Source of the DNA: Verrucomicrobiales bacterium
GTDB lineage: Bacteria > Verrucomicrobiota > Verrucomicrobiia > Verrucomicrobiales > DEV007
Direction of reading: 5' to 3'
Assembly (NCBI GenBank): GCA_022361255.1
Contig: JAKSBG010000351.1
Coordinates: 1-35,899, forward strand
DNA: 35,899 nucleotides
Under the pieces are notes generated by a model that worked only from the letters and a program-made list of their open reading frames with translations, was not told the origin of the DNA and searched no databases. Below, in pieces: positions 27,309 through 30,056 of this stretch. Position 1 is the stretch's first letter. Each line of letters opens with the position of its first letter. The translations under genes were made by a program, and so were the position numbers.

Positions 27309-28652
27309 ATGCGATTCATTTCTATAGCGGTGGTTCTGCTCGTTCTGCCGTGTTTTGCTCCAAGCTCAGAGCGTCCGAATATTCTTCTCATCACCTGTGA
27401 TAATCTCGGATACGGGGATTTGCAGAGCTACCGGTCCGAAAGTCCGATTCAAACGCCGAATCTGGATCGCCTCGCCTCGGAGGGAGCCCGTCTCACGCAA
27501 TTCTACACCGCCTCGCCAACTTGCACGGTTTCGCGGGCCTGCCTCCTGACCGGACGTATTCCGGAAAGGCATGGGCTTAAGAATCAGCTTGGAGGAATCG
27601 AGGGAAATTACGGCGTCGGATTGAATCAGAAGGAAATTCTCATTCCCGGAATTTTGAAAGGAGCGAATTCCCCCTATGCGACTGGATGCTTTGGAAAATG
27701 GAACATCGGATTCGCGGAGGGATCCCGTCCGACCGAGCGGGGCTTCGATGAATTTCTCGGGCACGCTTCGGGGAATGTCGATTACTATCACCATCGCTAC
27801 AACGGGAAGCGCGATCTCTTTCACGGCATCGAGCCGATCATTCGGGACGGTGAATATGCCTCCGACCTTTTTGCCGATGCAGCGATTGATTTCATCCGAC
27901 GGAAAAGCCCGGACGTCGCGTCCTGGTTTGTGTATTTGCCGTTTAACTCGCCTCATTTCCCCAACAAACGCAACAAGCTTCCCGGGCAATCAGATGAATG
28001 GCAGGCGCCGGACTGGGCATTCAGCGAAACGGGAATGTCTCCGGAGGAAACCGATCCGAAGAAGCGATATGACGCCGTCGTCTACGCGCTCGACAAAGCG
28101 ATCGGCCGTGTGCTCGAAGCGTCGGAAAAAACGGGGGAAGCGGAGAACACGTTTGTCTTTTTTATGTCGGACAACGGAGGGTTCCGGCTGAACCGGAAAG
28201 GTCTCGATGTGGGAATCAATGAGCCGCTCCGCTCCGGCGGGGTGACCTGCTGGGAGGGCGGCCTGCGGGTCCCGGCCTTCGCGCGCTGGCCCGGGAAAAT
28301 CAAGGAGGGCAGTGTGATTGATGAGCCGCTCTGGTCGCCGGATATTCTGGTCGCCTGCGCTGATCTGGCAGGCGTGGGTTTGCCCGCAGAGGTTGTCTAC
28401 GATGGGAAAAATCCCCTTCCGGTGCTGCGGGGGGAGTCCGCATCCCCGCATGAGTCATTCTACTTCGACTACCGGTCGCATTCCGCTCTTCGAAAAGGAG
28501 ATTGGAAGATCGTCAGGGAGAAGCCGGACCAGCCCTGGCAACTGTATGATCTCGCCACGGACAGGGGGGAGACGACTGATCTGGCGAAAGAACGGCCGGA
28601 GATGGTGGAGCTACTGGTCGCCGAACGAAAAAAATGGCGGGACACTTTCTGA
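27309..28652 (+). CDS. Secreted sulfatase (type I, formylglycine family) with variant active site
   Basis: A 447-residue protein with a signal peptide (ATG at 27309, cleavage near FAPSS). ERPNILLITCDNLGYGDLQSY opens the alkaline-phosphatase-like sulfatase fold; D31 is a metal ligand while the usual second D is N32. The active-site motif at 72-76 reads C-T-V-S-R followed by ACLLTGR, whereas the formylglycine signature is C-x-P-S-R, so the proline is valine. SDNGG and the C-terminal GDWKI segment are present. It should hydrolyse a sulfate ester in the periplasm if C72 is matured. A GAGAGGA lies about six bases before the ATG. The selenoprotein gene begins 45 bp downstream. Confidence 0.88.
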   Translation: MRFISIAVVLLVLPCFAPSSERPNILLITCDNLGYGDLQSYRSESPIQTPNLDRLASEGARLTQFYTASPTCTVSRACLLTGRIPERHGLKNQLGGIEGNYGVGLNQKEILIPGILKGANSPYATGCFGKWNIGFAEGSRPTERGFDEFLGHASGNVDYYHHRYNGKRDLFHGIEPIIRDGEYASDLFADAAIDFIRRKSPDVASWFVYLPFNSPHFPNKRNKLPGQSDEWQAPDWAFSETGMSPEETDPKKRYDAVVYALDKAIGRVLEASEKTGEAENTFVFFMSDNGGFRLNRKGLDVGINEPLRSGGVTCWEGGLRVPAFARWPGKIKEGSVIDEPLWSPDILVACADLAGVGLPAEVVYDGKNPLPVLRGESASPHESFYFDYRSHSALRKGDWKIVREKPDQPWQLYDLATDRGETTDLAKERPEMVELLVAERKKWRDTF

Positions 28653-28697: not shown

Positions 28698-30056
28698 ATG
28701 AAGAAAGTTCTTTTTTGCTTCCTGCTTGGCAGCTTTCTGTCGGAGGTATCCCACGCTCAGGGACCGGGGAAAGCGAAAGATTCGGGGCCCCTGCCTTTAC
28801 AGGGACAGGAGTTACCTGACGTTGTCGCTCACGATGAGTCGGGTGAGGAATTTTCCCTTCAGCAGCGACTCAAAGGCAAGCATGGGGTGATCGTTTTCGG
28901 TTGTCTGACGTGACCCCCGTTTCTGCGCAACGTCCCCGGTCTGGAGGCGGTTTATCAGGATTATCAATCGAAGGATGTAGCGATTTTTTACGTATACAAA
29001 TCGCTCGCTCATCCGGAGAAAGATGGGTTTGTTCAACCCGTTTCGCTGGAAGAACGACTCGCCCATATTGCCCATGCGAAGGGTGAGCTTGGAACGAAAA
29101 TTCCCTGGCTCGCTGACTCAATGTCGAATGATCTAAAGCATGCCTTCGGTGATCGCAATAATTCCGAATTTGTCATTTCCCCTGAGGGCAAAGTCATCAT
29201 CGCCCGCGCCTGGAGCGACCCGGACCAGTTGCGCGAAGACCTTGAAGGACTGGTTGGCAAAGCCGAAACCCTGACCGGAGTTTCTGATCTCGAAAAAGTT
29301 TCGAAAACGGAGGCCGAAAGGGAGTCAAAAGTAGCCACCGGGATTGTTCCCCGGGTGGAGCGCCCGTCCGGAGCGCAGCCTCTCACGGTGACAGCGCATG
29401 AAGTGAAAGGGGGGCATCCGCACTATCTGAAATTGCGTGCGGAGGCGGCAAGTGATCTGAGTAGCGGAGGGGAAGGGTCGCTTCATCTCGCGTTTCGCCT
29501 CGACCCGATTCATAAGGTGCACTGGAACAATCTTGCTGCTCCGCTTCGTTTCGAAATCAGGGCACCCGGGGGGATAGCGGTTGAGCCGAAGACGGTTGAA
29601 GCAGAGAAGGTTTCCCGGGCAGAGGCAGACGCGGATCCCCGTGAATTTCTGATCAAAGTGAATCGGGGGGAATCAAATGAACCGATCGATCTCACTGTAA
29701 AATATTTCGCGTGTGATGACGACAACCGCTGGTGCAAAGCGGTAACCCAGACTTTTACCGTTGCCTGGGCGATTGATCGCGATGCCGGCCGGGTTAACAA
29801 TCGCAGCAGCGGCGGTGGCCGGGGCATGAAGGGGAAGGGAAAAGGAGGCAAGGGGATGAAAGGGCGCCCCGGATCCGGCACCCCCGATCCGACCCGCATT
29901 CTTTCCCGATTCGATTCGAACGAGGATGGGAAAATCTCCCGTGCCGAAGCAACCGGACAAATGGCCGCACGGTTTGATCAGGCCGACTCAAACGGCGACG
30001 GCTTTGTGACGAAAGAAGAGCTCATCGCAAACTTTGCGAGGCGACGGGGAAAGTAG
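28698..30056 (+). CDS. Deiodinase-like selenoprotein (in-frame UGA at codon 72) with DsbD-N-like and EF-hand domains
   Basis: One frame of 452 codons, broken only by TGA at 28911-28913. Residues 1-20 are a signal peptide. Residues about 30-190 match the iodothyronine deiodinase/thioredoxin-like fold. VIVFGCLT-U-PPF parallels the deiodinase FGSCTUPPF motif, and IFYVYKSLAHPEKDG, LEERLA and WLADSMSN parallel IYIEEAHxSDGW, LQDRLQAA and VVDTMQN. C69 makes a C-x-x-U pair. Residues about 230-360 resemble the DsbD N-terminal domain, with C339 and C346. A Gly/Lys-rich linker (about 370-393) leads to two EF-hands (DSNEDG at 406, DSNGDG at 430). The hairpin after the UGA fits a bacterial SECIS. Likely a periplasmic redox enzyme; substrate unknown. 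A UGA sequencing error for TGC is the alternative, but the SECIS-like loop argues against it. Readthrough needs SelA-D, not in this window. Confidence 0.85.
28929..28952 (+). promoter_or_regulatory. Bacterial SECIS-like hairpin
   Basis: AACGUCCCC (28929-28937) pairs with GGAGGCGGUU (28943-28952), with one C-A mismatch and one bulged G, around the loop GGUCU (28938-28942). The loop starts 24 nt after the UGA, within the usual 16-37 nt, and has G at the first two positions. It is the same loop sequence as in the E. coli fdhF element that binds SelB. Confidence 0.7.

Follow-up and report, generated by a model that had tools for sequence, protein, structure and literature searches.

A candidate Verrucomicrobiales selenoprotein joining a CxxU site on a deiodinase-like frame to a DsbD-N-like cysteine domain

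Deiodinase-like selenoproteins of bacteria were reported in 2005 from the Sargasso Sea (PMC1088965) and included in a further count, of the Global Ocean Sampling data (PMC2398784), and an inventory of 119 families and subfamilies published in 2026 lists deiodinase-like and Redoxin selenoproteins, both with UxxC sites (PMC13188914). Among vertebrate enzymes, Dio2 has a proton relay made up of Glu160, His162, His182, Ser127, Thr129 and Tyr157 (PMC11592359). In a different branch of redox biology, the N-terminal domain of DsbD (nDsbD) carries Cys103 and Cys109 on opposite strands of a hairpin and serves as an electron donor to thioredoxin-fold proteins of the periplasm (PMC7347389).

The gene described here has features of both. 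It lies in a stretch of 35,899 nucleotides (the window; contig JAKSBG010000351.1 of the Verrucomicrobiales assembly GCA_022361255.1), and the features discussed below are:

28698..30056, + strand: complete candidate selenoprotein gene, 452 codons, Sec at codon 72 (frame translation and homologues)
28698..28760, + strand: putative signal peptide, MKKVLFCFLLGSFLSEVSHAQ (read from the sequence; homologues start with similar hydrophobic stretches)
28794..29261, + strand: thioredoxin-fold domain, codons 33-188, deiodinase/Redoxin-like (Pfam and VIA-align)
28902..28913, + strand: CxxU active site, Cys69-Leu-Thr-Sec72, with the TGA at 28911-28913 (sequence and alignment of homologues)
28931..28949, + strand: bacterial SECIS hairpin with its GGUCU loop (28938-28942) set 24 nt 3′ of the UGA (alignment of homologues and synonymous minimum)
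29304..29783, + strand: second beta-sandwich domain, codons 203-362, DsbD-N-like, with Cys339 and Cys346 (Foldseek, VIA-align, PF11412 and hhalign)
29889..30053, + strand: C-terminal EF-hand pair after a Gly/Lys-rich linker, loops DSNEDG and DSNGDG (PF13202, 39.4 bits)

With the bacterial deiodinase-like selenoproteins of PF00837 the predicted protein shares a thioredoxin fold, Sec within a T-U-(P/G)-P-F motif, a bacterial SECIS, occurrence in aquatic bacteria and the existence of Cys homologues. It differs from them in having Cys rather than Ser three residues before Sec and Leu in place of the relay Glu, in adding the DsbD-N-like Cys domain and the EF-hands, and in scoring below the PF00837 cut-off. 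When compared by description, which leaves room for overlap in sequence, no entry of the 2026 inventory joins a CxxU site on a deiodinase frame to a DsbD-N-like domain, and the NCBIfam models for the inventory's CxxU families (e.g., NF041199 and NF045827) gave no match at E values up to 1. Neither NCBIfam release 20.0 nor Pfam has a model that covers the gene above its cut-off, apart from the domain-level Redoxin and AhpC-TSA matches discussed below; the best NCBIfam model, deiodinase_rel, scored 59 bits against a cut-off of 250.

The only in-frame stop between the ATG at 28698 and the TAG at 30054-30056 is the TGA of codon 72, and what a mechanical ORF list gives as a separate second ORF (29121-30056, 311 aa) is the continuation of the same frame. 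The first-pass annotation had proposed exactly this, two ORFs forming one frame parted by a single TGA, and on re-translation its coordinates, its codon number and its motif C-L-T-U-P-P-F all proved exact. Among 289 genomes of the same order that we searched for homologues, 26 had a match, and 21 of those 26 (the window's own genome included) have exactly this TGA at the matching position of the GCLTUPPF motif, with no further gene-breaking stop. The TGA form was also found in a locus from Verrucomicrobia (L066), one from a contig labelled Planctomycetaceae (L068) and L169, which comes from another class of the phylum. Altogether there are 24 Sec-form loci, the window's and 23 others, every one of which has TGA at this codon within an invariant GCLTUPPF. 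Such conservation makes a nonsense mutation an unlikely origin for the TGA, as it would not be conserved across loci. In more distant members this codon is TGC or TGT, in the context GCLTCPEF or GCLTCPEY. Over the stretch from the TGA to the following ATG, dN/dS has a median of about 0.15, with dS near saturation.

Several individual loci are of separate interest. In one homologue (L057, G112:C114) the codon at the Sec position is TGC, the reading frame is interrupted immediately downstream, and the SECIS loop sequence is still present; this may be either a recent loss of Sec or an assembly error. The Planctomycetaceae-labelled L068 is the first branch within the Sec clade in our tree, which could reflect either transfer between phyla or mis-binning. 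Two other Sec-form proteins (L055 and L056) have about 310 additional N-terminal residues that are rich in EF-hand loops.

Downstream of the UGA, 22 distinct sequences have in common a seven-pair hairpin with a GGUCU loop, which lies close 3′ of the UGA and has a G within its small apical loop. The strongest sign that it is a SECIS element, and one that is independent of folding, is a probable constraint on synonymous change: the fraction of synonymous differences falls to 0.24–0.25 over codons 79-86, as against 0.59 for the gene as a whole, which is the lowest value in 336 codon windows, and it reaches 0.0 where Pro and Gly codons make up the stem and loop. Covariation lends the predicted hairpin modest support: 89% of the alignment cells are paired in it, versus 36–62% when the partners are slid, and its covariation score was equalled by 6 of 500 shuffles. 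The GGUCU loop is identical to that of the experimentally known SECIS of E. coli fdhF, and the selD gene of the same genome has GGUC. Single-sequence folding of the window's own 63 nt was no better than for shuffled sequences (z 1.17), so that the element came to light through the alignment alone, and an Rfam scan around the UGA gave no match.

The machinery to decode such a UGA is encoded in the same genome. A tRNA-Sec with anticodon TCA was found at C467:852-946 (61.1 bits), and selD at C471:14075-15004 (L027, G000) has an in-frame TGA of its own (SSCAGUASKL) followed by a GGUC-loop hairpin, an arrangement seen in all 16 relatives whose selD scored over the cut-off. It is followed by selA at C471:15197-16552. 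The selB gene is in two pieces: C471:20352-20729 (of 20762) holds its N-terminal part and C114:11425-9926 (of 11437) the rest; as both pieces lie at contig ends, selB is split by an assembly gap. Across the order, selA was found in 20 of the 21 TGA-form genomes versus 93 of all 289 (hypergeometric 5e-10, with genomes treated without correction for kinship), and the sole TGA-form genome with no selA match, G199, is an assembly of 720 contigs. The same genome as the window probably has two further selenoprotein genes, one for a redoxin with FWUPFC (L139; G000:C296:1069-1461, minus strand) and one for a peroxiredoxin-like protein with TGGUTAEC (L141; G000:C182:23790-24176, minus strand).

Taken at the level of sequence, the gene at 28698-30056 is almost certainly a selenoprotein gene whose internal UGA is decoded as Sec. 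The first-pass annotation had made this claim and had named three findings that would count against it, and on each point the claim gained strong support: tRNA-Sec, selA, selB and selD are all encoded in the genome, the same TGA in many independent assemblies argues against a misread TGC or TGT, and Cys homologues exist at the site.

The AlphaFold2 model of the protein has a mean pLDDT of 87.7, and its first domain is a thioredoxin fold. In Pfam, this domain passed the cut-offs for Redoxin (PF08534; 33.4 bits vs. 26.6) and AhpC-TSA (31.6 bits). In a VIA-align comparison of residues 31-188, the best row was mouse Dio2 (9h48; Z 20.3, 156 residues aligned, 2.1 Å), followed by Dio3 (4tr3; Z 19.2, 158 residues aligned, 3.0 Å), with SdbA (18.5), ResA (17.4) and TxxC peroxiredoxins (Z ~15–16) in lower rows; as rows within 1 Z count as tied, the deiodinases lead ResA by only ~2–3 Z. 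A search of a viral structure library returned only thioredoxin-fold matches such as glutathione peroxidases. We also built a tree from 86 domains (41 family rows, 30 PF00837 proteins from related genomes and 15 redoxin-family proteins from the window's own genome). In it the family groups with the PF00837 proteins, apart from the own-genome redoxin-family proteins (support 100/98), domain 1 is sister to the PF00837-type bacterial deiodinase-like proteins, and the Sec forms make up one clade (98/89). The term "deiodinase-like" in the first-pass annotation is thus borne out by fold and by tree grouping, and is weakened by the replacement of two relay residues and by the profile check suggested there: PF00837 gave 21.8 bits for this gene, below its gathering score of 27, and matched 26 of the 41 family members at E values of 0.01 or better. 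Relatives commonly have canonical deiodinase-like selenoproteins, with the motif GSHTUGPF or GSYTUGPF (L108-L113, L116, L117, L120, L122, L127-L129, L132 and L134), and the window's own genome has four PF00837 genes, all without TGA.

The active site is where this protein departs from deiodinases. The vertebrate deiodinase motif is S-C-T-U, with Ser at position -3 and Cys at -2 relative to Sec, whereas here, in C-L-T-U, the Cys is at -3. Of the relay residues that were mapped (Ser, Thr, Tyr, Glu and one His), Thr, Tyr and His are kept (Thr71, Tyr100 and His105); Ser is replaced by Cys69 and Glu by Leu103. These replacements run through the family: all 41 members have Cys or Asp at the Ser position and Leu at the Glu position, whereas both Ser and Glu are kept in all 28 alignable canonical bacterial deiodinase-like proteins. 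The exchange of Ser for Cys and Glu for Leu points to a CxxU thiol/selenol site built on a deiodinase frame. Compared with Dio2 and Dio3, with which it shares the fold of domain 1, 22–23% identity and the active-site Thr, Tyr and His, the window's protein thus has two relay residues replaced, and it differs further in its bacterial in-frame SECIS and in being a multi-domain and putatively exported protein. With the ResA/TlpA thiol-disulfide oxidoreductases (Z ~17) it shares a CxxC-type redox site and probably its export; it differs from them in having Sec as the second Cys, and the Redoxin-family paralogues of its own genome fall outside the clade of deiodinases plus this family.

The rest of the protein was missed in the first-pass annotation, whose domain picture stopped at the deiodinase-like part and included neither the second cysteine domain nor the C-terminal EF-hands. 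Residues 203-362 form a beta-sandwich in the predicted model (pLDDT 94.2). Foldseek matched it to many DsbD N-terminal domain entries with a probability of ~0.99 and an E value of only ~0.01 (0.0085), and VIA-align gave a Z score of 6.7 to nDsbD (99 residues aligned, 3.7 Å), tied with adaptin-ear, complement and other Ig-like folds. PF11412 was the sole Pfam family found for the window's domain, at 16.8 bits, under its cut-off of 25, and it matched 9 of the 41 family members; a PDB sequence search with the domain found no relative. In one profile-to-sequence comparison with hhalign (local E 0.0021), PIDLTVKYFACDDDNRWCKA aligned to ATLTVTYQGCADAGFCYP of nDsbD with both Cys in register. In the predicted model Cys339 closes strand 330-340 and Cys346 opens strand 346-359, placing the pair on opposite strands of a hairpin. 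The predicted beta-sandwich and its Cys pair on a hairpin resemble those of nDsbD (PF11412; 3pfu and 1l6p), with YFACDDDNRWC aligned to YQGCADAGFC. The domain differs from nDsbD in its C-x6-C spacing (C-x5-C in E. coli), in falling under the Pfam cut-off and in being fused to a selenoprotein thioredoxin-fold domain, with no membrane domain. We refer to it as DsbD-N-like, and not as a proven member of that family. The genome also encodes DsbD_N proteins, one of them within an 804-codon frame. As for the claim that the protein is secreted, its hydrophobic N-terminus ending in SHA-Q and the extracytoplasmic character of its domains are consistent with export, which we consider putative on these two grounds.

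The two cysteine sites appear to be inherited together. Of the 41 aligned members, all 33 with CxxU or CxxC keep the second Cys site (32 with both Cys, L056 with Ser-Cys), and none of the 8 with DxxD has a Cys there. Members found later follow the same pattern: the second pair is missing from the GCLTE form (L180, which keeps just the first Cys) and from the GDLTA, GDLTH and GLLTE forms, and is present in the Sec form L169. Co-variation across the family shows the CxxU geometry and an apparent coupling of the two Cys pairs. Joint retention and joint loss as seen here are what a relay from one site to the other would predict; the classified redox-dead forms make up one clade, however, so the joint loss may represent a single event or only a few. 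In another class of the phylum (L079-L086 and L157-L182), both domains are fused to long N-terminal repeats that look beta-helix-like or DUF1566-like by eye, and in many of these copies DLTD stands where the redox motif would be, so that they are redox-dead yet retained.

We favor, with moderate confidence, the reading that the gene product is exported and acts as a selenenylsulfide reductase coupled to a DsbD-like module of its own. Sec would be inserted at the UGA (28911-28913), for which the evidence is comparative, by SelB and tRNA-Sec under the guidance of the hairpin at 28931-28949. Outside the cytoplasm, the C69-x-x-U72 site of the thioredoxin-fold domain would reduce an oxidized substrate, for which a protein disulfide, a sulfenate or a peroxide are candidates, and turnover would leave a Cys69-Sec72 selenenylsulfide. 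Cys339 and Cys346 of the protein's own DsbD-N-like domain would then reduce that bond and would in turn be recharged by the genome's DsbD, while the EF-hands probably bind calcium and may anchor or stabilize the protein. The genes around the locus encode a sulfatase, a YkuD transpeptidase and a phosphonate-type binding protein; comparison of neighborhoods found no conserved neighbors beyond sulfatases, which occur at differing places, and gave no pointer to an electron donor or substrate.

Several other explanations were weighed. One is that the TGA is a true stop, produced by nonsense mutation or sequencing error or separating two independently translated products. TGA does end ordinary genes here, such as the upstream sulfatase gene, whose TGA is at 28650-28652, and the ATG at 29121 could allow a restart, but a product restarted there would be without the active site, selection is purifying upstream of that ATG, and the identical TGA in independent assemblies, the association with selA and the constraint on the SECIS all speak against it, so that we give it next to no chance and regard it as refuted in practice, as far as sequence comparison can do so. 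A pseudogene reading and restart at 29121 were likewise considered and dropped, as was decoding of TGA as Trp, since relatives carry Cys and the upstream sulfatase ends in TGA. If the gene is a selenoprotein gene, it might still code, as the name of the family would suggest, for a deiodinase or dehalogenase that depends on selenium and takes iodinated or brominated aromatics of marine origin as substrates. The top structural rows for domain 1 (Dio2 and Dio3), its PF00837-type sister clade, the retained Thr-Sec, Tyr and His of the deiodinase site and the identity of the best, sub-threshold NCBIfam family all point that way, but the relay Ser and Glu, invariant in the canonical proteins, are replaced in every member of this family, and a resolving Cys at -3 fits disulfide chemistry; we think dehalogenation quite improbable.

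A peroxiredoxin-like selenoperoxidase that acts outside the cytoplasm on H2O2 or alkyl hydroperoxides, its resolving thiol being Cys69 or domain 2, would leave the relay part of the scheme unchanged. Sec is well suited to peroxide chemistry, Redoxin and AhpC-TSA both pass their Pfam cut-offs and the alignment with TxxC peroxiredoxins is good, but the PxxxTxxC/U motif of peroxiredoxins is absent, with Cys rather than Thr at -3, and the genome's own peroxiredoxins and redoxins lie outside the clade that unites this family with deiodinases; on balance this seems unlikely. The persistence of DxxD relatives, fused to right-handed beta-helix-like repeats, indicates that the fold can serve a purpose in the absence of redox chemistry, and it raises the idea of a non-enzymatic role at the cell surface, as a sensor of both redox state and calcium or as a scaffold. 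Yet every member of the diverse Sec clade keeps Sec, which would be costly without a redox need, and we judge such a role highly improbable. Returning to the selenenylsulfide reductase that we favor, a stronger form of it, which we put forward only tentatively, is that one polypeptide would constitute a complete exported selenium redox relay, with a deiodinase-type Sec site, a built-in DsbD-N-type reductant and a calcium-binding tail, and would represent an undescribed class of extracytoplasmic selenoenzyme.

Being split into two meaningless pieces is the usual fate of such a gene in annotation, and many Verrucomicrobiota genomes are concerned. A function for the bacterial deiodinase-like selenoproteins has been lacking since 2005, and this branch, set apart from the deiodinase-type site by two active-site changes, would offer a concrete handle on it: its probable chemistry can be read in two co-inherited Cys/Sec pairs, both of them open to mutation.
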